Assembly: GCA_025356015.1 (NCBI GenBank)
Contig: JANXYO010000008.1
Span: forward strand, 1-64,000
Length of the DNA stretch: 64,000 nucleotides
Reading direction: 5' to 3'
Origin: Spirochaetaceae bacterium
GTDB lineage: Bacteria; Spirochaetota; Spirochaetia; Treponematales; Rectinemataceae
Shown: one piece after another, positions 18-24,597 of the stretch
Numbering within the stretch: the stretch's first letter is position 1
Layout of the letters: each line of letters opens with the position of its first letter
Position numbers and translations under genes: made by a program
Notes under the pieces: model-generated
The model's database searches: none
Told to the model about the DNA's origin: nothing
Seen by the model: only the letters and a program-made list of their open reading frames with translations

Positions 18-884
18 CTACCCGACACCATAGAGCCCAGGCAAGCGGCCAGTGATGTTCTCTTCCCGAACGACTCGATTCCCGGCGCAGTAAGATACGC
101 TGTGATTCTGGGCAGAATGGCTTCGAAGCTTGAGATGGGTAATCTCGAACTGTTGCCCCTTAACATCAACTATTTCCGCTTTCGCTGAAGACATCATGTG
201 TTCATCGTAGATGTCATCGAGATCGAGATTGTTCTCGGGATCAATGACGAAGACCTTCGGAGCACCGCCTTCTCGAATGAAGTACCAAAGACAATGCTCC
301 AAGAGGAGTTTCGCAATGGATGGTGCTGTTTTGCGCGCGTACTCCTTATACTGTTCACGGAACCCCTTCAAGACGATCTTGGTCTGTAGCGCTTGGCCAG
401 CATCGCAGCCTTCGATAGTATTCCCGGCAATTCCCACCTCTGTGTCGAAGATGAACGTTCGCTTCCGACAGGTGCCATCACTGTCTAAGAAATGGCTCTC
501 GACTTCCACACGTTCAAAGGCCTTGAGCCAAAGCAACCGGCCAACTCCTCTGCAGCCTTGGTCGATCTTATGATCGGTATCGAGGGTCTCGAAGGCAGCC
601 ATGTTTTCATCCGTGAACCCTACGCCATTGTCGGTTATCACGAAGCCGGTGATTTCGTCCTCAGCCTCTGGGCCTGGTTTCTTCTCCTCAGAGAAGAGAC
701 GCTTCTGACCTTTGGAAGAGACTCGTTCTATCTCGACGGTTATCCGTCCTTGCTTGGAATCCTTGCCAGATTCCTCGATGGCGTGGATAGAGTTGACCAC
801 CGCCTCGAAGACGGGGAGAAGTGCATGGGTCTTGGGGAGGCTTGTGTTCCGAAGCCTTCCTCTTAGGTTGGTCACCAGGCTCAA
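18..884 (-). pseudogene. GHKL (HSP90-like) ATPase, N-terminal part only
   Basis: The 288 residues form an N-terminal histidine-kinase-like ATPase fold. Asn31 in VVNSIHAI is the N box, DNGVGF at residues 85-90 is the G1 box, and RGVGR at 112-116 is the G2/lid motif. Related island-borne ATP-binding proteins are usually much longer, with a transducer domain and an extra C-terminal region. Here the frame stops with TAG just after a GRLPGLYG motif, where the family normally continues. The start is TTG, chosen because AAGGGGG lies seven bases upstream and an in-frame stop lies close behind. The stop makes it a probable truncated gene, although a short natural variant cannot be excluded. The biological role is unknown. 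Confidence 0.6.
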
Positions 885-6484: not shown

Positions 6485-9484
6485 TCACGGCAGGCGTTTG
6501 GGAAAGTCCATGTCCCTTTCGATCTCGGCGTAGACCACCGGCTGGACGCCCCTTCTTGGATTGAGGGCGAGGTTCATGTTTAGGAGGCCGAGGTTGCGGT
6601 CCTCGGGCATGGCGCTCACCGCCGAGCCGAGGCCGAGCTCGTCGTAGCCGCGGGTGGCGGCTGCGAAGGCTGAGTAGGCCTTGGAGCGAAGGGCGGCGTT
6701 CCCCAGGCGGTTCGCGACGTTGTAGAGGGCGGCCCCGAGGTTGTTGTCGGCCTTCATGAGAAGGGTGACGAGCTCGGCCTGGTGGGAGTCCTCGCGGGGG
6801 ACGGGCGAATCTATGCCCGCGATCTCGTCGCCGATGACCTGCTTCACTTTCCGGAAATAGCCCTCGGCCGCCGACCAGTCCTGGCGCGCGTACAGGGCCG
6901 CGCCGAAGGCGAAGCTCAGGTAGGGGCCCTCGCTGCCGAGCCTGCCGGCCCTGTGGAACTGCTCGAGCGAATCCGCATAACGCGCCGTCTTGTAGAGGAT
7001 GTAGCCGCGCTTGTAGCGCGTGTCCGCCGTGTCGTAGCCGTTCGCCTCGGCCCTCTTGTAGAGCCGCAGGGCCGATTCGAGGTCGGCCCTCTGGCGCAGG
7101 GCCACCTCGGCCAGTCCCGCGTAGGCCTCGGCCGCGAAGGTCTCATGGAAGCGCGCGCCGCGCGGGAGGCGCCTGAGCTCGACTGCGTCCTCGTAGGCGG
7201 AGGCGGCCGCTGTGAAGTCCTCCTCGGCGCCGATCCACTGGCTCTCCGCGATGCGGAAGCGCCCTCGCCATATCAGGCTCTCGATGTACCCTGCGGTCCG
7301 TTTCGCCGTGAGGGCGGGCAGGGCGCGGTAGGTGCTGACCGCGTTGTCGAGGGCCTTGCGCTCCTCGCTCGTCGAGGCGGTGTGGCGGAAGTAGCGGGCG
7401 AGCTCGAAGTGGGCCTCGGGCACCAGGGAGTCCTTCCTGGCGGCCTCCTGGAGGATGGAGTTCACGTCCTCGAGCATGCCCTTGTCCATGAGATATCCGC
7501 CCAGCTCGGCCAGGGAGAGGGCGTCGAGGGGGTTCTTCTTCTCGCCGAGGAAGCGCGCCTTGAGGGGCAGGACTTCCTTGAGGTTGTCGGTCCTGATGAA
7601 GTAGCGCAGCATCCGGCCGAGGTAGAGGTCGTCGCCCCCATAGCGCTGGATGAGGGCGGCGTAGCTCCGCCTCGCCTGCTCGAACCATTTCGGGTCCTCG
7701 TCGGCCCAGTCGAGGTAGATGTCGCCAAGCAGGAGGAGGCCGTCCTTGTTGAAGTAGTCCCAGGAGAGGAGGCGCTCCCTGATCACCTTCACCGCCGAAT
7801 CGTATTTGAGCTGGTCGCGCTCGAGGCGCGCCCAGTCAAGGGCCCCGGCCGATTCCTTCGGGTGGCGGTTGAGGAGGGCCTCGTACTTCTTCTCGGCGAG
7901 GATGTACTGCCGATGGGCGCGATAGGCCTCGGCGTAGCGGTAGTACCAGGCGATGAACTCGTGTTTTCCTGTCGCCCTATCGAAGGTCGCGTCGGCCTCG
8001 CTGTAGCGGTCCTCGGCGATGAGCTGGTAGCCCTGGCGGTACAGGGCGTTCGCCGCGAGCGGGATGTAGATGTAGCGGTAGCACATCCAGCCAAGGAGGG
8101 CGGTGACTGCGAGGACCAAGAAGCCGACCTTGAGGACGGGCAGCACCGTGTGGACGAAGGCATAGCGGAAAGTCCCGCGCTCCGCCTCGATCGAGGCCCC
8201 AGTCTTCTTCTCGTAGCCGCGCGGTATCTGGATGCGCCGCTTTAATATGCGGCCCGCGATGAAGGCGAGATCCTCGAGGGGCATCCCCTCGACCATGCCC
8301 CAAACGATCCTTGAACGCTGGGCCTCCGTCCCCTTCTCGTTCGCGAGGATGTCCTCGACGGCGACCCTGAGGTTCAGGGGATAGGCGAGGAGGTTGTCCT
8401 GGAGGCGGTCGACCTGGCCCTCGGTGAGAGCCACGGGACGGGCCTTTTCCTCTGGCGCGCCGCCGGCGGCCGGTCCCGCGGGCCTGGCCGGGGCCTGCCG
8501 CGGCGGAGGAGCCGCCCCGGGGACCTCGTCGAAGCCGCTCCAGTCCTGGTCGAGGGAAAAGGTCTCCTCGGCAGCGGGAGGAGCCTCGTCGCTCAGTGCG
8601 GCGATTTCCCTCTCGAAGCTCAGGGCAGAGGAGGCGCTCTCGCCGTTCTCAGGCCCGAGGCCTCCGCCCCCCTCCTCGAAACTGAAGGACTCGAAGGAAT
8701 CGAGGGCCCCGCCGAGGGACAGTGCCTCTTCTGCCGGGGGGCTAGGCTCATCATCGCCGAATGAGGCGAGTCCCTCGGCCTCCTGGGTAGGCGCCTCCGA
8801 CTCGGGAGCTTCCTCCGCGAAGCCCATGTCGGGAATCGAGAACTCGTCGGCCCCAGCGGCTGGCTCGGCCCCGCCTTCGGGCGGGGGCGAGAGATCGAAG
8901 GCGTCCAGGTCGGGAAGTTCGAAGCCGGCTCCCTCAGGCTCCGCTGTCGGAGCCTCCTCGAAGGAGAGGAGTTCCTCGGCCTCCCCACCTGCATCCTGGG
9001 GCGGCTCCTCGGAGAATTCCTTGGTCGTGAGGGGCTCGGCCCCGATACCGGCAGCCTCTTCGGCCGGGACCTCGCTCGGGGTGGGAGATTCGTCGAAGGG
9101 GGACAGGTCCCCGAAGGAAGCGAGGTCGAAGGCATCCTCCTCGGCTGTGGGGGCCTCCTGTGGCCCGGAAGGAGGGCTCTCGAGGAGGTCGCCGAAATCG
9201 AGGGCGTCGGCCGGGGCCTCGGATTCTGGGGCGATGTCCCCTGGCGGCGGCTCTTCCTCGGGGAAGGGTTCAAGAAGGGCGCCAAGCTCGGCATCGCTGG
9301 TCTCGCTCTCGAGGGCTCTGCCATCCTCAGCCTCGCCCCCGAGGCTCTCGACCTGGGCAGCTTCCTCGCCCCCGGGGGGCTCGATGACCGGCAGGGCTTC
9401 GCCCCAACGTTCCAGGACTTCTCCCTCGTGAGCGAGCGAGGCGAGATCTTGTTTGAAGCGTTCGATGTCCTGCAGACGGGGCAT
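6485..9484 (-). CDS. flcA: FlcA-like periplasmic flagellar collar TPR protein
   Basis: A 999-residue protein. Residues 1 to about 330 are low-complexity and very acidic (Glu, Ala, Pro, Ser, Phe-Asp repeats). A conserved helical stretch follows (VDRLQDNLLAYPLNLR onward), then one membrane helix at about 448-472. After the membrane come some 500 residues of tetratricopeptide-like repeats, presumably periplasmic. This layout and the opening (MPRLQDIERFKQDLASL) match the spirochaete collar protein FlcA (Borrelia BB0236 type), which builds the collar around the periplasmic flagellar motor. The intracellular acidic domain is larger than I would expect. The start has GGAAGGATCGCC upstream. It is transcribed alone; a TTAATATAGG element lies before the start. 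Confidence 0.7.
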   Translation of the reverse strand: MPRLQDIERFKQDLASLAHEGEVLERWGEALPVIEPPGGEEAAQVESLGGEAEDGRALESETSDAELGALLEPFPEEEPPPGDIAPESEAPADALDFGDLLESPPSGPQEAPTAEEDAFDLASFGDLSPFDESPTPSEVPAEEAAGIGAEPLTTKEFSEEPPQDAGGEAEELLSFEEAPTAEPEGAGFELPDLDAFDLSPPPEGGAEPAAGADEFSIPDMGFAEEAPESEAPTQEAEGLASFGDDEPSPPAEEALSLGGALDSFESFSFEEGGGGLGPENGESASSALSFEREIAALSDEAPPAAEETFSLDQDWSGFDEVPGAAPPPRQAPARPAGPAAGGAPEEKARPVALTEGQVDRLQDNLLAYPLNLRVAVEDILANEKGTEAQRSRIVWGMVEGMPLEDLAFIAGRILKRRIQIPRGYEKKTGASIEAERGTFRYAFVHTVLPVLKVGFLVLAVTALLGWMCYRYIYIPLAANALYRQGYQLIAEDRYSEADATFDRATGKHEFIAWYYRYAEAYRAHRQYILAEKKYEALLNRHPKESAGALDWARLERDQLKYDSAVKVIRERLLSWDYFNKDGLLLLGDIYLDWADEDPKWFEQARRSYAALIQRYGGDDLYLGRMLRYFIRTDNLKEVLPLKARFLGEKKNPLDALSLAELGGYLMDKGMLEDVNSILQEAARKDSLVPEAHFELARYFRHTASTSEERKALDNAVSTYRALPALTAKRTAGYIESLIWRGRFRIAESQWIGAEEDFTAAASAYEDAVELRRLPRGARFHETFAAEAYAGLAEVALRQRADLESALRLYKRAEANGYDTADTRYKRGYILYKTARYADSLEQFHRAGRLGSEGPYLSFAFGAALYARQDWSAAEGYFRKVKQVIGDEIAGIDSPVPREDSHQAELVTLLMKADNNLGAALYNVANRLGNAALRSKAYSAFAAATRGYDELGLGSAVSAMPEDRNLGLLNMNLALNPRRGVQPVVYAEIERDMDFPKRLP

Positions 9485-9580
9485 GGCGATCCTTCCCTAT
9501 ATTAACGGACGATCTGGCGCTTTGTGAAGGAAATCCGCTTGAGCCCGGCATCGGAAGCAGCCGATATTCGGTATATAGCC

Positions 9581-10339
9581 ATGAAAAGACTCATTTTCGC
9601 TGCCTGTCTCTCTGTTGCCGCCCTGCTTTCACTGGCCGCGGCATCTCCGGAATCGGGATCCCCAGAGGCCCCCCAGGGACTCTACAGCCCCTTTCCGGCC
9701 GTGGAGTCCCTGACCCTCCACATGAGGCTCGCCGGCCTGGCAAAGGTCTCAGCCCCCCAAATAATCGAAGGCTTCCTTGTCCTCTCTGCCGCGGGCCCCC
9801 ACAGGTATGTCGGAGCCGCCTTCGCCCACGAGGGTTTCGCCTCCGTGCACTCCTTCAGGAGGAATGCCAGGGGCGTCTTCGTGCTCGCGTATCAGATCCC
9901 CCTGAAGCGCAGCGAGCCCCTCGCGTATCGACTGGTCATCGATGGAGTCTGGACCTGGGACCCGGCCAATCCCCAGCGCCTGATTGACCCCTCCCTCGGC
10001 CTCGCCGTCTCCCTGGCTGCCATCCCCTATATTAGCGACCTCCACCTCGGCGTCTACGAGATCCTCGATCCCAGGGACGGGAGGACGGCGAATTTCATCT
10101 TCCGCGCCGCCCCGGGCGAGCTTGTCACGGTGAGCGGGGATTTCGACAACTGGGACCCCTTCATCCACGAGATGAGCGAAACAGCGCCGGGTGTGTACGA
10201 GCTTTCCCTTCCCCTGACGCCCGGGACCCACCTCTACGGCTTCGTCTACCGCGGTTCCCTTGTCCCCGATCCGCTGAACGTATCCAAGGCCTCGAACCGG
10301 GAGGGCAAGATCGTCTCAGTCCTGGCAGTCGGCCGCTAG
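9581..10339 (+). CDS. Secreted protein with CBM48/AMPK-type glycogen-binding domain
   Basis: A 252-residue protein with a Sec signal peptide (MKRLIFAACLSVAALLSLAAA, cleavage near residue 21) and no clear lipobox. Two beta-rich modules follow. The second, at about 170-235, contains VTVSGDFDNWDPF and GTHLYGFVYRG, the core of the CBM48/isoamylase-N E-set fold that binds alpha-glucans or acts as a structural module. No catalytic domain is present. The first ATG after the divergent promoter region was preferred because the upstream part of the frame would precede the signal peptide. The ligand is unknown. It neighbours the FlcA-like gene, so a role in the envelope is as likely as carbohydrate binding. 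Confidence 0.65.
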   Translation: MKRLIFAACLSVAALLSLAAASPESGSPEAPQGLYSPFPAVESLTLHMRLAGLAKVSAPQIIEGFLVLSAAGPHRYVGAAFAHEGFASVHSFRRNARGVFVLAYQIPLKRSEPLAYRLVIDGVWTWDPANPQRLIDPSLGLAVSLAAIPYISDLHLGVYEILDPRDGRTANFIFRAAPGELVTVSGDFDNWDPFIHEMSETAPGVYELSLPLTPGTHLYGFVYRGSLVPDPLNVSKASNREGKIVSVLAVGR

Positions 10340-10397: not shown

Positions 10398-11441
10398 TCA
10401 TGTGCCGTGGCGGACGAGTCCGGCGTCACGGAGCGCTGCGAGTGCGTTTTCGGCCGTCCTTCTCCTGAGCTCCCGTATCGAGTCGACCGAGGCGTAGGCA
10501 CTGTGGTCGGTGAAGACCACGTTGGGGAAGGAGCGGAGGGCTGTCCCCTGGGGAAGGGGTTCGGCGACGAAGACGTCGAGGCCGGCCCCGGCGATGTGGC
10601 CGGAAGCCAGGGAAGCGATGAGGGCCTCCTCGTCGAGCACGGCCCCGCGCGATACGTTCACCAGGCAGGCGCCCTTCTTCATCGAGGCGAGGGCCTCGCT
10701 TCCGATGATCCCGCGGGTCTCGCCCTTGAGCGGAAGATGCACCGAGATCCAGTCGGAATCCCTGAGGAGCTCGTCGAATGAGGCTGGCCGCACGGCGACG
10801 CCCAGGGCCACGGGCGCCCCGCCGAGGGCGGCATCGATGCGCTCACAGCTGATGCGCGGGCTCCAGACGAGTATCTCGCTGAAGCCCAGGCCGAGGGCGA
10901 TCCGGGCCAGGGCCCTTCCCGTCCCGCCGAAGCCGAGGATGCCAAGCCTTGTGCCCGCGAGCCGCCTCCCGAAGGGGACAGTGCCCCAGCCTCCGCCACG
11001 GACAAGGCTGTCGCGCCTCGCTATGCCCCTCGAGAGACAGAGTATGAGGGCGAGTGCGTGCTCCGCCACCTCGGTGTCGCAGTAGCCTGGCACGTTGGCC
11101 ACGACGATCCCGCGCCGGGCCGCGGCCTCCTGGTCGACGTTGTCGAGGCCTATGCCGTAGCGGGCGATGACGCGGCAGCGCTCGAGGGCCTCGATCGCAG
11201 CCGCGTCCGCCGGGGCGAGGTTCACAAGGAGGGCGTGCGCCTCCTTGCCCGCCGCCGCGACGTCTGCCGAGCTCCGGCACTTCGCCACGACCAGGTCGAC
11301 CCCGGCAGCCTCGAGGATGTCCCGCTCGATCAGCGACTCGCCGAAGCGGTCGTCGGTGATGACCGCCAGGGGGCGTCGTGCGCAGGCGGCTGAGCCCGGC
11401 TCCGGCCGCGGGGCTTGGCTGAAGTCCGGGCCTTCGGTCAC
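10398..11441 (-). CDS. D-isomer-specific 2-hydroxyacid dehydrogenase (CtBP-like)
   Basis: A 347-residue NAD-dependent dehydrogenase. The nucleotide-binding motif is GILGFGGTGRAL. Catalytic Arg lies in VNVSRGAVLDE, Glu in GLDVFVAEP and His in FTDHSAYAS. The early segment ARYGIGLDNVD is diagnostic of the phosphoglycerate dehydrogenase/C-terminal-binding-protein group. No ACT domain follows, so it is not a full biosynthetic SerA. It starts with GTG three bases after the stop of the soluble chemoreceptor gene, making it the third gene of a leftward operon. The substrate, some D-2-hydroxy acid or 2-oxo acid, is not evident. Confidence 0.8.
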   Translation of the reverse strand: MTEGPDFSQAPRPEPGSAACARRPLAVITDDRFGESLIERDILEAAGVDLVVAKCRSSADVAAAGKEAHALLVNLAPADAAAIEALERCRVIARYGIGLDNVDQEAAARRGIVVANVPGYCDTEVAEHALALILCLSRGIARRDSLVRGGGWGTVPFGRRLAGTRLGILGFGGTGRALARIALGLGFSEILVWSPRISCERIDAALGGAPVALGVAVRPASFDELLRDSDWISVHLPLKGETRGIIGSEALASMKKGACLVNVSRGAVLDEEALIASLASGHIAGAGLDVFVAEPLPQGTALRSFPNVVFTDHSAYASVDSIRELRRRTAENALAALRDAGLVRHGT

Positions 11442-11444
11442 AGT

Positions 11445-12299
11445 TTAGCGCTCTCCCTTGTCGAGGAGGGTGTCCAGGAAGTCGTGGCTTGTCGACAGGG
11501 CGCTGAACACCGCGTGCGTGTCCTTCACGCTGCCCGAGATGGACTCGAGCGAGGCGAGTCCGTCGGTGAGTGCCTTGGTCTCCTCCTGGATGGCGGTCGA
11601 GATCTCAGAGAGGAAGTGGCCGGCCTCGTCGATGCTGCCTGCGTTCGCCTTGAAGTTGGCGAGGATCTCGGCAAAGGAACTGCGGAAGCGCTCGAGCAGG
11701 TCGATGAAGCCCCGCATGCGCTCGTCGATGACGGCGACCGAGGAGCGGAACTCCCCGATCGTCGAATCGATCTCCTTCGCGAAATCCCCGGTCTGGCCCG
11801 CGAGGGTGCGGACCTCGTTTGCGATGATGCGGAAGCCCTTGCCCACCGATCCGGCCCGCGCGGCCTCGATCGATGCGTTGATCGCGAGGATGTTGGTGCG
11901 GTCGGAGACGTCGCGTATCGCCCCCGTCACGTTCTCGATGCTCTTGGTCTTGCCCTGGAGGTCGCGGAAGAGGCCGTCGATGTGCCGCGCGTCGGAGGCG
12001 GCTCGCTCGAGTTCCTTCATGCGCTCGACCACGTCCGAGTCCATGGTCGAGTTCTCGACGAGGATCCTGGACATCATGCTGTCGATCCTGACCGCGTTGT
12101 CCGAGGTGCTCGCCCCCGTGGCCCTGATCTCCTCGAAGGAGGCGACGATGGTGGAGAGGGCGTCCTCGATCCCCTTCATCGATGAGTCGAGGATGCCCAG
12201 GGATCGCTGGGTCACCGAGGAGAGGACGACGGACTTGTTGTAGCCGACCGCGAATCGGTCGAGGGCGACCTTGTAGTTGGCGAGGATGTCTTCCTGCAT
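11445..12299 (-). CDS. Soluble methyl-accepting chemotaxis protein
   Basis: A 284-residue chemoreceptor without membrane helices or a recognisable input domain. The centre (TNILAINASIEAARAG through FRIIANEVRTLA) is the conserved hairpin tip that contacts CheA and CheW, flanked by long coiled coils. It starts eight bases after the diiron protein gene, which suggests the partner protein supplies the sensing. In Treponema denticola such a cytosolic MCP is encoded beside, and acts with, the oxygen-binding diiron protein ODP. I infer the same here: an oxygen-responsive cytoplasmic receptor feeding CheA. Confidence 0.8.
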   Translation of the reverse strand: MQEDILANYKVALDRFAVGYNKSVVLSSVTQRSLGILDSSMKGIEDALSTIVASFEEIRATGASTSDNAVRIDSMMSRILVENSTMDSDVVERMKELERAASDARHIDGLFRDLQGKTKSIENVTGAIRDVSDRTNILAINASIEAARAGSVGKGFRIIANEVRTLAGQTGDFAKEIDSTIGEFRSSVAVIDERMRGFIDLLERFRSSFAEILANFKANAGSIDEAGHFLSEISTAIQEETKALTDGLASLESISGSVKDTHAVFSALSTSHDFLDTLLDKGER

Positions 12300-12307
12300 A
12301 ATTTGTC

Positions 12308-13084
12308 CTAGACCCGGTACAGCTCGTCGAGCAGGTCGACGCCGCAGCGCAGGGAGGAGAGCCAGGTCAGGAAGTCACCGACGGCCCTTCCCCTGTAGAT
12401 GCCGCCGTGCTGGGGGGCGATCATCTGGGGATCGAGGCGTCTGACGATATCGGTCCATCGGCGCACCACGGAATTCGAGGCCATGTAGCGCTTGTGGAAG
12501 CCCTCGGTGTAGGGGAGGGCCGCGGCGAAATCGTCGATGAAGAGGGTCTCGGCCCCGTCTGGGAAGACGGCTGCCCCGACATCGGCGGAAAAGAGGATCT
12601 TCGCCCTCTCGTCGAAGAGGGACCAGGCGCCAGGGGAGTGCATGAAGTGGGTGGGGACGAAGCTCAGGCGGGCTCCCGAGCCCAGGGTCAGGGCCTTGCC
12701 CGAGTCCTCGATCGCCGTGATCCGGCTCTGGTCGACAAGGCCAAAGTGGGGGATGAACCTCGTCCACAGGCTCGAGATGTAGACCTTGGCCGAGGTGACG
12801 CCGAGCCAGAGGGCGATGCCCGAGGAGACATCGGGGTCCTGGTGGGAGAAGAAGATCCCCTCGATCCTGTCCAAGGAGATATAGCGGCTCGCGCTTGCCA
12901 CGACCTGGGAGAAGAGATGGACCCCGCCCGGATCGAGGAGCCAGCCCCTGTTCTTGTCAACGATCAGGTATTGGAGGGTCTGGACAATGCCCTTGCGGTC
13001 GGCCGGATCTGTGCCTAGCCAGATGAATTTGTGCTCCCCGTCGTCGAAGAGGATCCGTCCATCTATGTCGCCCTTGTCTATCAC
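12308..13084 (-). CDS. Diiron beta-lactamase-fold protein, ODP-like oxygen sensor
   Basis: A 258-residue metallo-beta-lactamase-fold protein of the flavodiiron branch without the flavodoxin domain. Candidate iron ligands are all present: His81, Asp83 and Asp85 in FSHQDPDVSSG, His146 (and His149) in PTHFMHSPGAW, Asp168 in LFSADVG and His226 in APQHGG. The fold and this ligand set fit the spirochaete ODP family, which binds O2 at a diiron site and couples to a soluble chemoreceptor. The receptor gene follows directly. A hydrolase or an FDP-like O2 reductase is the alternative, but no flavin domain is present. It is the first gene of the operon; the divergent GH5 gene shares the upstream region. 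Confidence 0.7.
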   Translation of the reverse strand: MIDKGDIDGRILFDDGEHKFIWLGTDPADRKGIVQTLQYLIVDKNRGWLLDPGGVHLFSQVVASASRYISLDRIEGIFFSHQDPDVSSGIALWLGVTSAKVYISSLWTRFIPHFGLVDQSRITAIEDSGKALTLGSGARLSFVPTHFMHSPGAWSLFDERAKILFSADVGAAVFPDGAETLFIDDFAAALPYTEGFHKRYMASNSVVRRWTDIVRRLDPQMIAPQHGGIYRGRAVGDFLTWLSSLRCGVDLLDELYRV

Positions 13085-13133
13085 TTCTTCCTCCGCTTGT
13101 GCCGCCGCCCTTACGGACGGTCCCTGGCTTCCA

Positions 13134-13163
13134 TTGTCGGCTCTCGGGAACCGGCGCTATAGT
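13134..13163 (+). promoter_or_regulatory. Promoter of the GH5 gene
   Basis: TTGTCG and TATAGT are separated by 18 bases and lie 23 bases before the GH5 start, which has its own GGGGGAG ribosome binding site. The -10 matches the consensus well, the -35 moderately. Confidence 0.55.
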
Positions 13164-13185
13164 CGGTCCGTATAGGGGGAGCCCC

Positions 13186-15150
13186 ATGGAGATAATAGGC
13201 GAGAGGTGGCGTGATACGGAAGGACGGAGGATCGTCTTCCGCGGGGTCAACCTCGGCGGGGACTGCAAGATCCCCACGAGGCCCGATGGCGCGACCCACC
13301 TGAAGGCTGGATTCTACCAGAGAAAAGGCGTCTCCTTCCTCGGAAGGCCCTTCCCCTTGGCCGAGGCCGACGCCCACCTCGGGAGACTCAGGCGCTGGGG
13401 GATGAACTTCCTCAGGCTCCTCGTCACCTGGGAAGCGATCGAGCACGACGGTCCCGGCGTCTACGACCTCGAGTATCTGGACTATCTCGAGGCCCTCGTG
13501 GCCAAGGCCTGCGAGTGGGGCTTCGCCGTCCTCATCGATCCCCACCAGGATGTCTGGAGCCGCTGGACCGGAGGCGACGGGGCCCCGATCTGGACCCTCG
13601 AGGCCGCGGGCTTCGAGCCCGAGCGGCTGCACGGGTCGGGAGCGGCCCTCGTCCATCAGGAGCTTGGTGAGGCCTACCCCCGCATGAAGTGGTTCTCCAA
13701 CGGATCGAGGCTTGGCTGCGCGACCATGTTCAGCCTCTTTTTCGGCGGCGAGACCTTCGCGCCTGGAATCAGGCCATTCGAGGAAACCACGGGACCATCG
13801 ATCCAGGAATTCCTCCAGGGCCACTTTGTGGCTGCGATGTGCGAGGTCGCGCGTCGTGTCGGGCGCTTCGAGGGGGTCCTTGGCTTTGACAGCCTGAACG
13901 AGCCCCTGCCAGGATTCATCGGCCACCGCGACCTCGCCCGGCCCGAGGGCGGGGTGCCGGTTTTCATGCCCGCCATGTCCCCCTGGGACGCCATCCGCGC
14001 CGGGTCTGGCTTTCCTGCCGGAGGCCTGGGCAGCCGGGGACAGGGCTCATGGAAGGACGGCTCGGAGTGCGTCTGGAGACGCGCCGGGGTCTGGGAGCTC
14101 AAGAGGGGCAGGCCGAGCCTCCTCCGCCCAGGGCACTTCCTCTCGGCGGGGGACAGCCAGGTCGACTTTGGCCGCGACTTCCTGCTTCCATTTGCAAGGC
14201 GGTTCATCGCCGGCGTCAGGGAAGCGGCCCAAGGGGGACAGAGCCTGGCAGGGGGACCGGTACGGGGACAGGGCATGGCCCTTTTCATCGAGGGCCCCCC
14301 CGAGGGAGGCCGCCAGCCTTGGGATCCGCGTTCAGACCCTGTCCCCGCCGTGAACGCGACCCACTGGTACGACGTCGTGACCCTCTATCTCAAGCGCTGG
14401 ACCGGCTTCCTCGCATTCGACCCCGAGACCAGCGGGGTCATCGTGGGGCCGCGCCGGGTGAGGCGTTTTTTCCACGCGGCGATCGCGAGGATCGCAGACC
14501 ATGGCCGCAGGGCCATGGGTGGCATCCCCAGCCTGCTCGGCGAGTTCGGTCTGCCCTTTGACATCGACGGCAGGCACGCCTACCCAGGGGGGACGAGGCC
14601 GGGCGATTACAGCAAACACGAGGAGGCCCTGGGCGCCTACTACGACGCGATCGACGCCCAGCTTCTGGACGCTGCCCTGTGGAATTACTGCGCCTCGAAT
14701 TCCCACGAGCGTGGGGATAACTGGAACGGGGAGGACCTCTCGGTCTGGTGCGCCGATGAGGCCTCGGCCTCCCGTCCCGGCGGTCCGAGGTCGGAGACGG
14801 GCTTGCGCGAGGACGCGGGGGGCAGGGCCCTTCGCGGCTTTGTGCGGCCCTTCGCGCGGGCCGTGGCGGGCGAGATCATTGCCATGGGCTTCGACATGAT
14901 CAGCGGGGAATTCTTTCTGCGCTGGCTCTGTGACCCGGCAGTCCCCACCCCAACAGAGATCTTCGTGCCGCGGCTCCAGTATCCCGCGGGCTTCGATGTC
15001 GAGGCCTCGGGGGCCGTCTGGACAGCCGGCGCCAGCTCGGATCTTATCGAGGCGAGGGCCCGGCAAGGGGCAGCGGAATGCGCGCTGCGCATACGTCGCC
15101 GGGCCAGGACCTTGCGGGCGGTCGGCAACAGCCTCGGCATCAAGGATTGA
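13186..15150 (+). CDS. GH5 glycosidase, glucosylceramidase/steryl-glucosidase type
   Basis: A 654-residue family 5 glycoside hydrolase without a signal peptide. The acid/base Glu is in DSLNEPLPG and the nucleophile Glu in LLGEFGLPF. The motif PHQDVWSRWTGGDGAP followed by WTLEAAGF resembles GH5_12 enzymes, which remove glucose from glucosylceramides or sterol glucosides. A C-terminal beta domain occupies roughly the last 120 residues. The absence of a signal suggests that it acts on imported or internal glycolipid. Start chosen at the ATG after GGGGGAG; an open frame extends further upstream without support. galU follows 32 bases downstream on the same strand. Confidence 0.7.
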   Translation: MEIIGERWRDTEGRRIVFRGVNLGGDCKIPTRPDGATHLKAGFYQRKGVSFLGRPFPLAEADAHLGRLRRWGMNFLRLLVTWEAIEHDGPGVYDLEYLDYLEALVAKACEWGFAVLIDPHQDVWSRWTGGDGAPIWTLEAAGFEPERLHGSGAALVHQELGEAYPRMKWFSNGSRLGCATMFSLFFGGETFAPGIRPFEETTGPSIQEFLQGHFVAAMCEVARRVGRFEGVLGFDSLNEPLPGFIGHRDLARPEGGVPVFMPAMSPWDAIRAGSGFPAGGLGSRGQGSWKDGSECVWRRAGVWELKRGRPSLLRPGHFLSAGDSQVDFGRDFLLPFARRFIAGVREAAQGGQSLAGGPVRGQGMALFIEGPPEGGRQPWDPRSDPVPAVNATHWYDVVTLYLKRWTGFLAFDPETSGVIVGPRRVRRFFHAAIARIADHGRRAMGGIPSLLGEFGLPFDIDGRHAYPGGTRPGDYSKHEEALGAYYDAIDAQLLDAALWNYCASNSHERGDNWNGEDLSVWCADEASASRPGGPRSETGLREDAGGRALRGFVRPFARAVAGEIIAMGFDMISGEFFLRWLCDPAVPTPTEIFVPRLQYPAGFDVEASGAVWTAGASSDLIEARARQGAAECALRIRRRARTLRAVGNSLGIKD

Positions 15151-18249: not shown

Positions 18250-18356
18250 GCCCCTACCGTGATGGCGAGCGCCCCTTACCACGGCGGCAAGGGCCCCCCT
18301 CATGGCGGACACCGCCCCTACCACGACCGCAAGGGCACCTACCTCGTGCCGAGGGC
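18250..18356. repeat. Tandem array of five 21-22-base units
   Basis: Units begin near 18250, 18271, 18293, 18314 and 18335. They follow the pattern GCCCCTACC, then a CAC/CGG middle, then GGCAAGG. Copies differ at several positions but keep the spacing. The last unit runs into the 3' end of the ROK regulator gene and supplies its stop codon region. There are no spacers between units, so this is a minisatellite rather than a CRISPR array. Confidence 0.65.
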
Positions 18357-19565
18357 GAGGGCCAGCTTCCTGTCGAGGACGAGGCAGGCGGCCCCGAGGG
18401 CGCCGGCGAACTCGCCCAGGTGGCCCCGCTCGATCCGCACGGCTTGGAAGGGATAGTCCATCGCCCAACGCGCCGCCTCGGCCTTCACCAGCTCGAGGTA
18501 GGGTCCCTCCACCTGGCCCACGGGGCCGCCCAGGATCACCTTGTCGGGGTTGAAGGTCGTGACGATGTTGGCGACCGCGAGCCCGAGGTAGGAGGCGGCC
18601 TCCTTGAGGCTCTGGGCCGCGACGCTGTCGCCCTCGGCGGCGGCTGCGCAGACCTCCTCGCCGCGCATCTGGGAGGCTGGGATCAGCTCGAGGCTCGAGG
18701 GCCTTCCCGAGGCGATGAGGGCCGAGGCCCGCCTCGCCATGGCCAGGCCCGAGGAGAGGACCTGAAGGCAGCCCCGCTTCCCGCAGCGGCAGACCGGGCC
18801 CTCGGCGTCCATGACGACGTGGCCGATCTCTCCTGCGCTGTAGCTCGAGCCGTGGAGGAGGCTGCCGTCCGAGACGAAGGCGGCGCTGATGCCCGTCCCG
18901 ATGCCGATGTAGACGAGGCCGTGGACCCCCTTGCCCGCGCCGAAGCGGGCCTCGGCCAGGCCTGAGCCGCGGTTGCGGTTGATAACATAGGTCTCGAGTC
19001 CAAGGGCGGCGCTGACTGTCTCGCCGACGGGGACCGCGTTCCAGCCGAGGTCGTCGGCCCTGATGATCCTGCCTGAGCCGCAGTCGACGAGGCCGGGGGC
19101 GCCGATGCCTATGGCGGGGAGGAGCTCGCCTGGGCAGAGGAGCATGGCCTCCTTGAGCCCCTCGACCAGGGTGGAGAGGAAGGACTCAGGGCCCTCCTCG
19201 GGGACGGGCCTTGTCGCGCTGGCGACGATCCCGCCCTTCAGGTTGGTGATGGCGAAGGCCCAGTGCCCCGAATGGAACTCGGCCCCGAGGGCGAACCATC
19301 TCTGGGTGTCGAGGTCGAGGAGGATGCCGGGTCTGCCGCGGCCGTCGGCGCGGGCCTCGGGCCTCGGCCCCTCGTCCGAGCTGCGCTCTGCCACGAGGCC
19401 CGCGGCGAGGAGCCGGGAGACGATCGTCGAGGCTGTGGTCCGGCTGAGGCCCAGCTTCTTGGCGAGGAGTGCCCTGGATATTCCCCCGCTAGCCTCGATC
19501 CCGGCCAGCATGCCTGTGATGTTGAAGAGCTCGGCCGTGTCTGCGTGGAGGGGAAGGGCGGGCAT
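18339..19565 (-). CDS. ROK-family transcriptional repressor (NagC/XylR type)
   Basis: A 408-residue regulator with an N-terminal MarR-like winged helix (ALLAKKLGLSRTTASTIVSR, residues about 32-51) and a C-terminal ROK sugar-binding domain. GIGAPGLVD, YIGIGTGISAAF and the zinc motif CRCGKRGC are in order. Such proteins bind palindromes and are released by a sugar or sugar phosphate. It is divergent from the large catabolic operon, and a strong inverted repeat lies in the 77-base gap. It probably represses both itself and the operon. Its 3' end abuts a tandem-repeat array. Confidence 0.85.
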   Translation of the reverse strand: MPALPLHADTAELFNITGMLAGIEASGGISRALLAKKLGLSRTTASTIVSRLLAAGLVAERSSDEGPRPEARADGRGRPGILLDLDTQRWFALGAEFHSGHWAFAITNLKGGIVASATRPVPEEGPESFLSTLVEGLKEAMLLCPGELLPAIGIGAPGLVDCGSGRIIRADDLGWNAVPVGETVSAALGLETYVINRNRGSGLAEARFGAGKGVHGLVYIGIGTGISAAFVSDGSLLHGSSYSAGEIGHVVMDAEGPVCRCGKRGCLQVLSSGLAMARRASALIASGRPSSLELIPASQMRGEEVCAAAAEGDSVAAQSLKEAASYLGLAVANIVTTFNPDKVILGGPVGQVEGPYLELVKAEAARWAMDYPFQAVRIERGHLGEFAGALGAACLVLDRKLALALGTR

Positions 19566-19589
19566 GGGCCGAGCTTAGCACGGCCACCT

Positions 19590-19616
19590 TATTTTGTCTA
19601 TTATCTTGACAAAATA
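19590..19616. promoter_or_regulatory. Palindromic operator of the ROK regulator
   Basis: TATTTTGTC and GACAAAATA form a perfect nine-base inverted repeat with a nine-base spacer, in otherwise GC-rich sequence between the divergent regulator and operon. AT-rich palindromes with a TTTTGTC/GACAAAA-like arm are typical of ROK repressor sites. It covers the -35 element of the operon promoter, so binding would block transcription. Confidence 0.75.
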
Positions 19617-19633
19617 CCAAGCCGTGCTACTGT
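19606..19633 (+). promoter_or_regulatory. Promoter of the ROK-controlled operon
   Basis: A perfect TTGACA, which is also the right arm of the operator, is followed after 16 bases by TACTGT. The transcript would begin within a few bases of the first start codon, so the mRNA may be leaderless. No ribosome binding site is visible before that codon. Confidence 0.5.
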
Positions 19634-19642
19634 CGATCCTAT

Positions 19643-21043
19643 ATGATCGCTGGCAAGGGCGTCCGCGTCGGGGAAGTACGTCTCTATTTCCTCCCATACC
19701 GGCTCGAGACCCCCCTGAAGTTCGGCAGGGAGACCACAGGCCGCTGCGAGTGCGTCAGGGTCTGGGTCGGTGTCACGAAGCGTGGTGGTGCCGGGGCCAG
19801 CGGATGGGGAGAGGTCCCGATCGGCGCAGCCTGGGCATGGCCATCCTTACTTGCGCTCGAGTCCCGCACCGAGGCCATGAGGGCCTTCTGCCAGGAGCTC
19901 GCCGCCGCCTGGCTTGGCTTCGGGGCATGGGGAGCCGCCCTCGAGTTGGGATGGCGCTTCCTTTGCGAGGTCCTGCCCTCGGTCTGGACCGCCCACAACG
20001 CCGAGCGCAGGAGTCGGGGCGAGGAGGACCTGCCCTGGCTCGCCGCCCTCCTCTGCGCCGCCCCCTTCGACATCGCCCTCCATGACGCCTATGGCCGGGC
20101 CTCGGGAGCCCCAAGCTTCGAAACACTCAACGCGGATTACCTCGAGCGTGACCTGGCCTGGTTCTACTGGGAGGGGAGCTCCTCGCCCTTCTCGGGCCTC
20201 TACCCGCAGAGCTTCCTCGCCCGGCCACCTTTCCGCTCCCTCCCGGTCTGGCACCTCGTGGGGGCGGCCGATCGTCTGGAAACGGGGAGCCCGGCGGGAC
20301 CCTCGGGCCTTCCCGGAGACCTGGTCTCCTGGATCCGCCGCGACGGGCTACAGCTCCTCAAGGTGAAGCTCCTCGGCAGGGACCTCGATGCCGACTACGA
20401 CCGCCTCGTCGCCGTGGGGCGGATAGCCCAGGCAGAGGGGATCGAGGGCATCGGCATCGACTTCAACGGCACGGTCGAGGACCAGCTCTGGATGCGTGAG
20501 CTCCTCGACCGCCTCGGGGCCGAGGAGGCCGGGACCGCCTCGCTCCTCCGCTATGTCGAGCAGCCCTTCTCGCCCGACCTTCGAGGGCGGGGCCTCCACC
20601 TGGGCGAGCTCGGCTCGCGGATCCTCATGGTCCTCGACGAGGCCGCGACCGACTACAGCTGCGTCGACCTAGGCCTCAGCCTGGGCTGGGGCGGGATAGC
20701 CCTCAAGACCTGCAAGACCCTCACCGGGGCGATCCTGAGCCTCTGCCGCGCCAGGGCAGCGGGCATGGAGGTCCTCGTCCAGGACCTGACGAACCCCATG
20801 CTCGCCCTGATCCCCCATGCCCTTCTTGCGGCCAACGCGGGCTCGATGTCGGGCCTCGAGGCCAACGCCGCGCAGTTCTGCCCCTCGGCTTCCGCGCCCG
20901 AGGCGGAGCTCCACCCAGGCCTCTACCGCAGGAGCTCGGGCAGGATCAGTCTCGAGAGCCTAACGGGCGCGGGGCTCTGCTACGCCGGCGCCGAGGAGGC
21001 GCGCAGCCTGCCCGAGCCCGCCTGGGCCGGAGGCGTACTATGA
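19643..21043 (+). CDS. Enolase-superfamily enzyme (mandelate racemase/muconate lactonizing-like)
   Basis: A 466-residue member of the enolase superfamily. Metal ligands expected on successive barrel strands can be seen: Asp in GIDFNG (about 272), Glu in YVEQPF (about 306) and Asp in MVLDEA (about 331). Catalytic Lys candidates are in LLKVKLL (about 240) and ALKTCK (about 354). These enzymes abstract a proton next to a carboxylate, as dehydratases or epimerases of acid sugars or dipeptides. The protein is longer than the usual 370-400 residues, mainly in the capping domain. First gene of the ROK-controlled operon. The exact reaction is unknown. Confidence 0.75.
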   Translation: MIAGKGVRVGEVRLYFLPYRLETPLKFGRETTGRCECVRVWVGVTKRGGAGASGWGEVPIGAAWAWPSLLALESRTEAMRAFCQELAAAWLGFGAWGAALELGWRFLCEVLPSVWTAHNAERRSRGEEDLPWLAALLCAAPFDIALHDAYGRASGAPSFETLNADYLERDLAWFYWEGSSSPFSGLYPQSFLARPPFRSLPVWHLVGAADRLETGSPAGPSGLPGDLVSWIRRDGLQLLKVKLLGRDLDADYDRLVAVGRIAQAEGIEGIGIDFNGTVEDQLWMRELLDRLGAEEAGTASLLRYVEQPFSPDLRGRGLHLGELGSRILMVLDEAATDYSCVDLGLSLGWGGIALKTCKTLTGAILSLCRARAAGMEVLVQDLTNPMLALIPHALLAANAGSMSGLEANAAQFCPSASAPEAELHPGLYRRSSGRISLESLTGAGLCYAGAEEARSLPEPAWAGGVL

Positions 21044-22185
21044 ACGGCCGCGAACGGGTCCTCGCCGCCCTCGACCATTCGGGAGCCTCCTACCCCCTCG
21101 ACCTCTGCGGCACGACGGTGACGGGCATCGCGACGGGCATCCTCGCAAAGGTCCTCGAGGCGAGGGGCCTGCCGCCCAAGACCCTGGTGGCCGACACGGT
21201 CCAGGGCATCTCCTCCCCTCCGCCCGAGGCCCTCCTCGCGCTCGGATCCGACACCCTCAGGGTTGGCATGGACAGGATAAGGACAAGCCCGAGGCCGAGG
21301 GAGGACGGGTCCCTGGAGACATGGGACGGCTTCGGCGTCCTCTGGAGGCGGGCCCCGGGGCAGCTCTACTTCAGCCAGGCAAGCGCCCCCCTGTCAGAGG
21401 GCAGGCTCTCCGATGCCCTCAGGGCCTACCGCTTCCCCGAGCCCGACCTCGAACCCATGAGGGCGGCCGTGGAGCAGGGGAGGCTTGATTCGGCCAAGTT
21501 CGGCCTTTTCCCCATCCTCGACCGGGACTGCGCCGGCCTCCTCGAGATGTCGGCGCGGCTTCGGGGGACGGAGCGGCTCTATCTCGACATGTACGACGAC
21601 CCCGAGGGCGTCGAGGAGCTTGCCGAGCGTCTGCTCGAGTACAAGCTCTCCTACTGGAAGGCCCAGGTCTCGCTCTGGGGCGGTGGCGCGGTCGGCATCG
21701 CCGAGGCCGACGACTACGGCTCCGAGCTCTCCCTCCTCGTCGCGCCCCAGACCCTCAGGAGGACCTACATCGGGCGCTACGCCAGGCTCTTCTCGGCCAT
21801 CCGGTCGAGGCTGCCGGAGGCGAGGGTCGTCTTCCACTGCTGCGGCGCGATACGCGACATCATAGGCGACCTCATCGAGGCCGGCATCGACGCCCTGAAC
21901 CCCGTCCAGTACCTGGCCTCGGGGATGGAGCCCGCCGCGCTCAAGCGCGACTTCGGAAAACAGCTCTCCTTCTGGGGCGGGGCCGTGGACACCAAGCGCG
22001 TGCTTCCCCACGGCAGCCCCGCCGAGGTCAGGGCCGAGCTCCTCAGGAACTCCGAGGCCCTCGGCCCGAATGGCGGCTGGGTGGTCTCGGCTGTGCACAA
22101 CATCCAGGAGGACGTCCCCCTCGAGAACGCCCTGGCCTTCCTGGACGCCGCCGCCGAGCTCAAGGAGAAGGGAGGCGGGATGTGA
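21040..22185 (+). CDS. Uroporphyrinogen decarboxylase-family protein
   Basis: A 381-residue TIM barrel of the UroD/MtaA/CmuA superfamily, overlapping the previous stop by ATGA. FHCCGAIRDII carries the His-Cys pair used for zinc in methyltransferase-type members, and the C-terminal SAVHNIQEDVPLENA is characteristic. Haem-type UroD signature residues are lacking and no other haem gene is nearby. UroD-like proteins of this type are often found in sugar-utilisation operons with unassigned function. I would not call it hemE. Confidence 0.75.
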   Translation: MNGRERVLAALDHSGASYPLDLCGTTVTGIATGILAKVLEARGLPPKTLVADTVQGISSPPPEALLALGSDTLRVGMDRIRTSPRPREDGSLETWDGFGVLWRRAPGQLYFSQASAPLSEGRLSDALRAYRFPEPDLEPMRAAVEQGRLDSAKFGLFPILDRDCAGLLEMSARLRGTERLYLDMYDDPEGVEELAERLLEYKLSYWKAQVSLWGGGAVGIAEADDYGSELSLLVAPQTLRRTYIGRYARLFSAIRSRLPEARVVFHCCGAIRDIIGDLIEAGIDALNPVQYLASGMEPAALKRDFGKQLSFWGGAVDTKRVLPHGSPAEVRAELLRNSEALGPNGGWVVSAVHNIQEDVPLENALAFLDAAAELKEKGGGM

Positions 22186-22988
22186 GGTACGCCGTCTGCA
22201 ACGAGCTCTTCGGGGCCATGGATTTCGCCGTCTCCTGCGGGATCATCGCCGAGGCGGGCTTCCAGGGAATCGAGATCGCCCCCTACACCCTCGGCCAAGA
22301 CCCCTCGGCCCTGGGCACGAAGAAGATATCGGCCCTGCGCCGGGCGATGGAGGGGAGCGGCCTCGCTTTCGCCGGGATGCACTGGCTCCTCGCCTCCCCT
22401 CCGGGACTCCACCTGGCCTCGGCGGACGCGCCGACGAGGAGGCGCACGATCGATTTCCTCAAGGCGATGTGCGATCTCGCAGGCGGGCTCGGGGGCGGCA
22501 TGCTTGTCCTCGGCTCGCCCAGACAGCGCGGCTCTCAGCATGTGCCTGCCGCCAGGGCCATGGCCCACCTCGGCGAGGCCCTCTCCGAGTGCGGTCCCCA
22601 CGCGGCGGCCTGCGGATCCATGATCCTCCTCGAGGCCCTCGATTCCACTCAGACCGACGTGGTGAACACCCTCTCCGAGGCGGCTTCGGTCATCGCGTCC
22701 ATAGGCTCGACGGGGGTAGGGGGGATGTTCGACTTCCACAACACGGGCAGCGAGACCGAGCCCTGGCCCGAGCTCATCCGCCGCTATTCCCCGATCATCG
22801 AGCATGTGCACGCGAACGAGAGCGACGGCACAAGCCCGCGGCGGGGCGGCTCCGATCTCGCGCCCTCCTTCGCGGCCCTCCGCGACATCGGCTTCTCGGG
22901 CTGGGTATCGGTCGAGGCCTTCGACCAGCCGGCTGATCCCGCCTCGACCCTGAAGGAGACCATGAGCCTTTTCAGGGATCTTGAGTAA
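22182..22988 (+). CDS. Sugar phosphate isomerase/epimerase-like TIM barrel (first copy)
   Basis: A 268-residue AP-endonuclease-2/xylose-isomerase-like barrel beginning with GTG inside a four-base overlap with the UroD-family gene. Features are the N-terminal VCNELFG, GFQGIEIAPYTL on the second strand, LLEAL with a metal-binding Glu, FDFHNTGS with Asp/His, and EHVHANESDG followed by VSVEAF with the last Glu. These match a metal-dependent ketose 3-epimerase or related isomerase. Substrate unknown; two more members of this fold lie downstream in the operon. Confidence 0.8.
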   Translation: MRYAVCNELFGAMDFAVSCGIIAEAGFQGIEIAPYTLGQDPSALGTKKISALRRAMEGSGLAFAGMHWLLASPPGLHLASADAPTRRRTIDFLKAMCDLAGGLGGGMLVLGSPRQRGSQHVPAARAMAHLGEALSECGPHAAACGSMILLEALDSTQTDVVNTLSEAASVIASIGSTGVGGMFDFHNTGSETEPWPELIRRYSPIIEHVHANESDGTSPRRGGSDLAPSFAALRDIGFSGWVSVEAFDQPADPASTLKETMSLFRDLE

Positions 22989-23044
22989 GTACCATGCCCC
23001 CCCGGCAGCGGAGGGAGATTTCGGACTTCATAAGGAGACAGGAG

Positions 23045-24046
23045 ATGAACAGAGCCTTGCGCCTCATCGCGATCCTTGCCCTCGTCGCGGCATTCGCCGC
23101 CGTTCCGGCCTTCACCCAGGAGTGGAAACCGGACCACACGATCACCGTCGTCGTTCCCTGGCCGGCCGGCGGAGCCTCCGACACGGTGGGTCGCATGCTC
23201 GCGGGCCTCATGGAGCAGTACATGGGGCAGCGGATGGTCATCGTCAACGCGCCCGGCGGCGCCGGCGCGATCGGGACCAAGGAGGTCTGGGACAAGCCGC
23301 ACGACGGCTACACCCTCACCGCCAACGCCACCGCGGGTTTCGTGAGCTACGAGATCCTCGGGACGATGGAGCAGACCCACCGCGACTGGACCTTCTTCCT
23401 CCCGATCTTCACCCCCAACGTGATCTGCGTGAAGAATGAATCCGCCATAAAGACCGTGGACGACCTCGTCGCCGCGATGAAGGCCAAGCCCAACGGCGTG
23501 GTCCTCGCCTCCGCCGGCGTCGGCAGCTCCGGCCACTACGCCGCCGAGCTCTTCAAGGGCGCGACGGGGGTGACCTACAGGCACGTCCCCTACGCCGGCG
23601 GGGCCCCCGCTGTCATGGCCGTCGCCTCAGGCGAGGCCGAGGTCGTCATGCAGCTCTCCGTCGAGGTCGCCGAGCTCCTCCGCTCAGGCAAGCTCCGCGC
23701 ACTCGCCGTCTCCGCAAAGGATGGGCTCACAATCGAGGGCGTAGGCTTCATCCCGCCCGTCCAGAAGGCCATCCCGTCCTTCCCGGACTACGGTTCCTAC
23801 TTCGGCATCATCGCCCCGGCCAACCTGCCCAAGAACGTCCAGGCCACCTACGAGGCCGCGTTCGTGAAGGCCGCCGCCTCCCAGGGCGTCAAGGACTACG
23901 CGAAGACCAAGGGAGCCATGCCCGTGGCGATCTACGGCAAGGAGGCCGCGGCCCTCGTCGAGCGCCTCGCGAGCAAGGAGGCCTGGATCCTCGCCGACGC
24001 CGGTGCGGCGAAGAAGTCGCCCGCGCTGTTCAACATCAGCCGCTGA
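23045..24046 (+). CDS. tctC: Tripartite tricarboxylate transporter substrate-binding protein
   Basis: A 333-residue periplasmic binding protein of the TctC/Bug family with a signal peptide (MNRALRLIAILALVAAFAAV, cleaved near AFTQ). Typical elements are ITVVVPWPAGGASDTVGR, NAPGGAGAIGT and the central GVGSSGH. Bug proteins bind carboxylated ligands such as citrate, aromatic acids or acidic sugars through water-mediated contacts with two carboxylate oxygens. AGGAG precedes the start. The membrane partners tctB and tctA follow directly. The ligand is therefore predicted to be acidic, which bears on the pathway substrate. Confidence 0.9.
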   Translation: MNRALRLIAILALVAAFAAVPAFTQEWKPDHTITVVVPWPAGGASDTVGRMLAGLMEQYMGQRMVIVNAPGGAGAIGTKEVWDKPHDGYTLTANATAGFVSYEILGTMEQTHRDWTFFLPIFTPNVICVKNESAIKTVDDLVAAMKAKPNGVVLASAGVGSSGHYAAELFKGATGVTYRHVPYAGGAPAVMAVASGEAEVVMQLSVEVAELLRSGKLRALAVSAKDGLTIEGVGFIPPVQKAIPSFPDYGSYFGIIAPANLPKNVQATYEAAFVKAAASQGVKDYAKTKGAMPVAIYGKEAAALVERLASKEAWILADAGAAKKSPALFNISR

Positions 24047-24051
24047 CGGAC

Positions 24052-24597
24052 ATGTCCGCCGACAACCGATTGGCGGAGGGGGGGGAGACCCCCCTTCCGC
24101 CCGACCAGGTCAGGAAGGAGAGGCCGCGGAACGACCTCACGGGCGGGCTCCTCCTTTTCCTCGTGAGCTCGGTGTTCCTCGTCCAGTCCCTGGGCATGCG
24201 GTTCAAGGACCCCTCCTGGGAGTGGTACACCTCGCCGGCGATCTTCCCCACGGCCATGGCCGGCCTCCTCGCCACCCTGAGCCTCGCGGTGGCGGCGCGC
24301 GGCGCCCTGGCCTGGGCCAGGACGCGCGCGACCATCGCGCCGCTGCGCATCGGCCGGGCGCTCAGGGAATGGGGCCTCGTCCGCTTCCTCGAGGGGGCGG
24401 CGGCGGTCATCGTGTTCCTCTTCTTCCTCGGCAAGGTCAACTTCTACCTCCTCTCGGCCGCGATGATCGTGATTTTCGGCACCCTGTTCAGGAGCGGCAG
24501 CCTCCTGAAGGCCCTCAAGGGGGCCTGCACGGCCGCGGTCTTCATCGTCGTCTTCCTCTATCTGCTGGGCCGGATTTTCGGGATCGTATTCCCATGA
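24052..24597 (+). CDS. tctB: Tripartite tricarboxylate transporter small membrane subunit
   Basis: A 181-residue protein with about four membrane helices after a polar N-terminus of some 30 residues. Sequence is poorly conserved in this family, so the call rests on size, helix pattern and position between tctC and tctA. It starts six bases after the tctC stop. TctB is thought to assist the large subunit TctA in proton- or sodium-driven uptake. Confidence 0.85.
   Translation: MSADNRLAEGGETPLPPDQVRKERPRNDLTGGLLLFLVSSVFLVQSLGMRFKDPSWEWYTSPAIFPTAMAGLLATLSLAVAARGALAWARTRATIAPLRIGRALREWGLVRFLEGAAAVIVFLFFLGKVNFYLLSAAMIVIFGTLFRSGSLLKALKGACTAAVFIVVFLYLLGRIFGIVFP

Follow-up and report, generated by a model that had tools for sequence, protein, structure and literature searches.

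Genes at the locus

The window, which here means the whole 64,000-nucleotide stretch analysed, contains three closely spaced genes on its minus strand, presented in Table 1 with their flanking features. In order of reading, they encode a protein of the oxygen-binding di-iron protein family (ODP), a chemoreceptor (MCP) and a dehydrogenase (DH), and the profile matches behind these names lie far beyond chance (PF19583, E 3e-72; MCPsignal, E 2.5e-26; 2-Hacid_dh_C, E 3.3e-49). According to the open reading frames of the window, 8 bases separate ODP from MCP and 3 bases separate MCP from DH. Because of this tight spacing, the three genes likely form one operon. A promoter scan of the intergenic stretch found no minus-strand sigma-70-like site upstream of ODP. 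Gene calling for the survey placed the start of the convergent gene at 9701, against 9524 in the table.

Table 1. Positions of the three genes and of the features around them in the window.
Feature	Position	Strand	Description and evidence
ODP	12308..13084	-	258 aa; di-iron protein, metallo-beta-lactamase fold; PF19583, 6qnm/6qrq matches, ligand columns
Soluble chemoreceptor (MCP)	11445..12299	-	284 aa; MCPsignal, hydropathy, predicted hairpin, Foldseek
D-2-hydroxyacid dehydrogenase (DH)	10398..11441	-	347 aa; 2-Hacid_dh_C, intact R265/E294/H313
Intergenic stretch between ODP operon and divergent GH5-like gene	13085..13185	.	operon promoter expected here (inferred placement)
GH5-like glycosidase gene, divergent	13186..15150	+	Glyco_hydro_5_C, E 1.3e-15; flank marker outside the system; same flank in relatives
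CBM48/AMPK-CBM protein gene, convergent	9524..10339	+	AMPK1_CBM, E 4e-08; flank marker outside the system

The encoded proteins

The first protein matches PF19583 with 243 bits against a curated cut-off of 27.2, covering positions 1–194 of 194. Its best matches among solved structures are 6qnm/6r9n (E 1.7e-112), followed by 6qrq/6qwo (E 1.1e-88), all named oxygen-binding di-iron protein, and flavodiiron chains appear at E 0.0018 or worse. We take 6qrq to be the ODP of T. maritima, a distant relative of the window protein. The ligand positions H81, D83, D85, H149, D168, Q225 and H226 form a pattern identical to that of the aligned solved ODP structures. In addition, Val86 occupies the place of the third motif-2 histidine of zinc hydrolases, and Gln225 precedes the last histidine. 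Through an alignment of 81 sequences, comprising the window protein and the best 80 of 409 ODP loci, it was observed that H81, D83, D85, H149, D168 and Val86 are each present in 81/81 sequences, H226 in 80/81, and Gln225 in 79/81 (one gap and one Leu). The flavodoxin domain is absent, unlike in flavodiiron proteins, and the profile matches are those to ODP and Lactamase_B alone, with flavorubredoxin models matched weakly.

Based on these ligand columns and scores, the window protein is assigned as a true ODP and not as a zinc hydrolase or flavodiiron enzyme. The initial annotation had described a di-iron beta-lactamase-fold protein with all expected ligands, and all seven positions are indeed present; kinship with zinc hydrolases, which it named as telling against this description, was tested and is contradicted by Val86 and Gln225. 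The Lactamase_B match (E 9.9e-14) and the weak flavorubredoxin matches might suggest that the first protein is instead a zinc hydrolase or a common flavodiiron oxygen reductase, but either identity is extremely improbable given the conservation of Val86 and Gln225, the missing flavodoxin domain and the far better matches to ODP structures, and both readings were discarded on the ligand columns and scores. The same genome contains three further PF19583 matches, which are flavodiiron-like and reach 27–29 bits against the ODP model; two of them have Ser in place of the Gln before the last histidine, and the alignment of the third ends earlier. In the available portion of PMC7785958, the T. maritima ODP is described as having lost the third motif-2 histidine and acquired Gln as a ligand in motif 5, and the window protein shares this Gln-for-His change. 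The accessible parts of PMC6978683 and PMC9665402 describe ODP as an oxygen sensor. By analogy with the T. denticola ODP, the window protein would bind O2.

For the second protein, no sensor family was matched beside MCPsignal, and no membrane-type hydrophobic stretch was found (best 19-residue mean, 0.82). The predicted fold consists of a long two-helix hairpin, H2–148 and H154–282 (mean pLDDT 87, pTM 0.47), and the best Foldseek matches of this model are chemoreceptors, among them 3g67, the soluble receptor of T. maritima. The MCP is a bare signalling hairpin without a sensor domain or membrane segment. In T. denticola, TDE2496 is coupled to ODP, lacks transmembrane or sensing modules and can modulate CheA (available text of PMC7666581), and ODP itself is TDE2498 (Muok et al. 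2019, as cited in the same text). The window pair belongs to the same family and shows the same genetic coupling to a membrane-free, sensor-free receptor. The gap, the hydropathy and the hairpin agree with the proposal of a membrane-free chemoreceptor placed 8 bases from ODP, as in the Treponema system, and the first two genes are the ODP-receptor module for oxygen/iron chemotaxis already known from the literature.

The third protein carries the marks of its superfamily, namely both 2-hydroxyacid dehydrogenase Pfam domains, a GxGxxG motif and an Arg-Glu-His triad. This catalytic triad is common to short phosphoglycerate dehydrogenase (PGDH), 2-hydroxyacid dehydrogenase and glyoxylate reductase enzymes. 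The triad, R265/E294/H313, is intact in 26/26 sequences of this DH type, including all 11 copies from genomes without the pair. Enzymes of the short PGDH, 2-hydroxyacid and glyoxylate reductase types (1wwk, 5tx7, 5aov) are the best sequence matches, with 1wwk and 5tx7 the best solved matches both as single sequence and as profile. The window DH differs from them in falling below every NCBIfam cut-off (PGDH 202 bits, glyoxylate reductase 189, D-LDH/VanH 59–98), its 202 bits against the serine-pathway PGDH model TIGR01327 comparing with a cut-off of 454, and in having Ser in place of the usual NAD-binding Asp. A fold search with the DH model gave similar scores for glyoxylate/hydroxypyruvate reductase, PGDH, D-LDH, phosphite dehydrogenase and CtBP, and it therefore names no substrate, since unlike enzymes score alike. 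By its sequence, DH is best classified as a D-2-hydroxyacid dehydrogenase nearest the PGDH and glyoxylate/2-hydroxyacid reductase types.

Two more specific roles were considered. A link between redox or lactate state and chemotaxis, suggested in the initial annotation, found no support: D-LDH models rank well below PGDH and glyoxylate reductase models, and with the DH profile D-LDH chains reached 150–153 bits against 229 for the best chain. By this ranking, DH would also differ from the T. pallidum D-lactate dehydrogenase TP0037 (available part of PMC7512555), a member of the same superfamily from the same phylum. A serine-pathway PGDH role was judged unlikely. The same genome has other family members, one of which lies beside serC and scores 300 bits for PGDH, also below the cut-off; because this better PGDH-like gene adjoins serC, DH is probably not the serine-pathway enzyme. 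The Ser of the window's DH type stands where strand 2 of the nucleotide fold ends, a position at which a second spirochaete type has Asp, and hints at a preference for NADP.

Distribution of the three genes

In a survey of 291 genomes of the order, with ODP and DH each counted at E<=1e-60, ODP was identified in 52 genomes and DH in 35, a threshold that leaves out diverged DH copies such as that of locus L042 (36%). With G095 added, in which ODP is cut by the contig end, 17 genomes have both genes, 36 have ODP alone, 18 have DH alone and 220 have neither. This co-occurrence is above expectation (Fisher p 9.4e-6, uncorrected for kinship). Genome G051 is among the 36 and probably holds the diverged L042 copy, and two of the 17 genomes with both genes (G030 and G057) carry the other DH type on another contig. 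The window's own DH type is present in 26 genomes, of which 15 have ODP and 11 lack both ODP and the partner MCP, with some of the ODP-less genomes only 79% complete. Genes were called with a codon-based caller, and longest-open-frame calls were dropped because of shadow frames in G+C-rich genomes. This caller missed two DHs (L150, L156) and one ODP (L045), which were recovered or checked by tblastn, and the genes of the L150 locus were called again with another training set.

Wherever ODP and the window's DH type share a genome in this survey, they are adjacent (15/15). These trio genomes represent 9 genera in two families. The trio lies on one contig in 14 of the 15; in the remaining genome, G003, a break at MCP divides it between two contigs. 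With predicted start codons, 12 of these loci have a gap between MCP and DH of -4 to +3, and the other three have gaps of 14, 18 and 53. L042, probably from G051, adds one more adjacent arrangement, in which DH is diverged and the gap is 142 bases. Among the best 80 of 409 ODP loci, a selection that leans to near relatives and in which several loci end too early to reveal the gene behind MCP, DH lies directly behind MCP in 12 loci, in addition to L042. Other lineages have an unmatched protein plus NIF3, TrkH, PurE, GuaA, an MFS transporter or a PAS-GGDEF-EAL protein at this position. The window, with DH after the receptor, also differs from the named cultured Treponema loci L046, L049, L053, L054, L055, L056 and L059, none of which shows a DH. 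As a gene order, then, the DH that the initial annotation saw coupled behind the pair recurs in 15 genomes; as an extension of the sensing system it found no support, with 36 of the 53 ODP genomes of the order lacking a DH match.

The pair itself behaves differently. Among 40 spirochaete genomes chosen for having ODP or DH, 22 contain the partner MCP, and these are exactly the ODP holders (22/22 vs 0/18; 21 genomes of the order survey plus G095). CheA is present in 40/40 of the chosen genomes, with four matches in the window's own genome, so the loss of ODP is not a loss of chemotaxis, and this explanation was ruled out. Since ODP and MCP come and go together, the ODP-receptor pair is a unit of inheritance.

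The conserved neighbourhood comprises the GH5-like gene, ODP-MCP-DH, the convergent CBM gene and a TPR gene. Within it, DH adjoins the convergent CBM gene in 12/26 genomes, compared with MCP in 15/26. Adjacency thus says little about function at this locus, because the CBM gene is adjacent nearly as often and cannot share the operon. The trio also persists despite a changed right-hand flank, which contains the CBM and TPR genes in family f1 and a YjjI-like glycyl radical enzyme or other genes in family f4. This persistence, together with the frequent overlap of the genes, makes shared transcription likely.

Flanks that are shared among relatives also reveal how the parts separate. In six of the genomes with DH only (G010, G011, G024, G032, G037 and G074), DH keeps its place ahead of the CBM and TPR genes although ODP-MCP is gone; in G001 it precedes the TPR gene, and in G002, G035, G056 and G059 it has other flanks. 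Conversely, ODP-MCP precedes the same CBM and TPR genes in G040, G048 and G083 with DH missing between them, and G068 keeps ODP-MCP with DH missing after MCP. Such differences occur within genera, as between G012 (trio) and G011 (DH only) or G025 (trio) and G024 (DH only), and genus g26 includes trio genomes, one genome with the pair only (G068) and one with DH only (G056). The closest relative of the window DH (73–74%) comes from G010, where ODP and the partner MCP were not found; this genome is only 79% complete, yet the pair is absent at the DH locus itself.

Phylogenies gave a compatible picture. In the DH tree, trio and DH-only rows interleave, and the starred branches force at least five to six label changes. 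The ODP tree has 47 rows, namely the window and spirochaete loci picked from the best 80 of 409, and places the trio rows in one clade of 20 rows (support 93), five of which are labelled as pair, one being a cut contig. Locus L088 carries the pair label though its contig ends inside ODP, and L019 was labelled as trio because G003 has the MCP end and DH on another contig. These are quick trees with many open forks and a root, hence a direction of gain or loss, that is not fixed, and the order of events was argued from the shared flanks. A single joining of DH, followed by several losses of either part, fits these data. Group-specific columns were also compared: one DH column is specific to trio copies and five to DH-only copies (shuffles mean 0.08), both sets probably reflecting kinship in part.

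Two expectations of a three-part system were examined at E<=1e-60, and both failed. DH is not kept wherever ODP-MCP is kept, being without a match in 36/53 ODP genomes, and it does not occur only with ODP-MCP, since 11/26 genomes of the DH type lack both. Within the trio clade, DH is missing from at least four genomes that retain ODP-MCP. The association of the three genes, whose loss in relatives the initial annotation had named as speaking against it, is thus lost in both directions. DH is a genuine neighbour, though one limited to certain lineages, and relatives retain or lose it independently of the pair.

Sensor pair and neighbouring enzyme

We consider it quite probable that the locus combines the known ODP-receptor sensor pair with a co-transcribed but independent metabolic enzyme. 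The identity, ligands, gene order and co-inheritance of ODP and receptor were observed directly, and their action is proposed by analogy. The cytoplasmic ODP would bind iron and O2 at its di-iron site and pass its state to the cognate soluble chemoreceptor; the receptor would then modulate CheA and in this way let cells react to oxygen and Fe(II). DH would have joined the ODP operon once, in one spirochaete clade, as an ordinary NAD(P)-dependent 2-hydroxyacid dehydrogenase of metabolism that shares expression, and not signalling, with the pair.

A working role of DH as a third component within this clade, feeding the NAD(P)H or 2-oxoacid state to the pair so that swimming integrates oxygen and redox, appears unlikely. 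The fold of DH is common to CtBP proteins, in which a co-repressor role is regulated by NADH, and the close packing of the genes in 9 genera from two families, often with overlaps, together with adjacency in every genome that has both, would be consistent with such a role. Against it stand the repeated loss of either part alone, also within genera, and the origin of the closest DH in G010, which is 79% complete and lacks the pair at the locus. The single trio-specific column compared with five DH-only-specific ones and a catalytic triad as intact as that of a plain enzyme point in the same direction. A variant, in which the ODP-receptor operon of one clade recruited an NADP-type DH as a redox input and pair-less genomes reuse the enzyme in metabolism, seems rather improbable as a whole; a possible redox-input role of DH in this clade has its positive evidence in the gene order. 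If DH did act in sensing, it would be an uncommon example of an oxygen chemoreceptor coupled to a metabolic enzyme.

We give similarly little probability to passive synteny, in which a conserved chromosome stretch alone holds the three genes together with no shared expression. Such a stretch would account for DH lying beside the CBM gene nearly as often as beside MCP, but the gaps of -4 to +3 in most trio loci, and the persistence of the trio when its flanks change, argue for shared expression. The explanation of a sensor pair with a co-transcribed, independent enzyme implies that a tight operon can mislead, as its third gene behaves as a neighbour and not as a component.

In the accessible part of the TREND paper (PMC7319448), ODP-MCP operons are described in two gene orders, together with ODPs beside other signalling genes and in fusions, and that part makes no mention of a DH in ODP operons. 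The available text of PMC10653840 contains a bare citation of the 2019 ODP paper, and no report of a DH in an ODP operon was recognised in literature lying mostly outside subscription papers. The survey charts a gene arrangement that recurs among uncultured spirochaetes and confirms the ODP-receptor pair as an inherited unit.

Several observations were counted against the explanation of a sensor pair with an independent enzyme. Overlapping MCP and DH genes that survive a change of flank exceed the needs of passive synteny, and the incompleteness of some ODP-less genomes (79% complete) was also weighed here. The adjacency in all 15 genomes, the diverged L042 case and the co-occurrence of ODP and DH across the order were entered on the same side.

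ODP domains in fused signalling proteins

In some genomes of the family to which the window belongs, which lack the ODP-MCP pair (oxygen-binding di-iron protein and soluble chemoreceptor), the ODP domain is fused with a GGDEF domain and a response-regulator receiver domain in a single protein, as found in the two of six such matches that were domain-scanned. These fusions retain the ODP-specific Gln-His motif, in which a Gln ligand directly precedes the last His, suggesting that they place cyclic-di-GMP signalling under O2/iron control.

Variation at ODP-MCP loci

A PAS-GGDEF-EAL protein gene adjoins ODP-MCP in L085 and similar Thermodesulfovibrio loci; as a signalling third gene, this protein is more plausible than the D-2-hydroxyacid dehydrogenase of the window. 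In genome G089, the gene call divides the MCP into fragments of 166 and 89 aa; the split may stem from a frameshift, or from masking or error in the sequence at that point.

Coordinates of the features described
Feature	Location	Strand	Remark
ODP-GGDEF-receiver fusion	L011 475-2214	-	ODP-domain match
ODP-GGDEF-receiver fusion	L013 1162-3192	+	ODP-domain match
Matches similar to L011/L013 fusions	L012, L014, L015, L016
PAS-GGDEF-EAL protein gene	L085 2152-5274	+	immediately 3' of ODP-MCP
MCP, two pieces	L028 2417-3336		G089 gene call; same place as L171
Gene run: TctC and TctA transporter components, URO-D-family gene	window 18339-26147	+
285-aa reading frame	window 18-875	-
999-aa protein	window 6485-9484	-	beside CBM gene

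Other genes of the window

The TctC/TctA/URO-D run, adjoined by a minus-strand ROK regulator gene, looks like an uptake operon for a carboxylate or sugar-acid. Pfam searches returned no match for the 285-aa frame (at 1e-5) or the 999-aa protein. The latter comprises a long, acidic, Pro-rich part followed by a repeat-like part, and in the locus survey of relatives it was kept adjoining the CBM48/AMPK-CBM gene in these spirochaetes.
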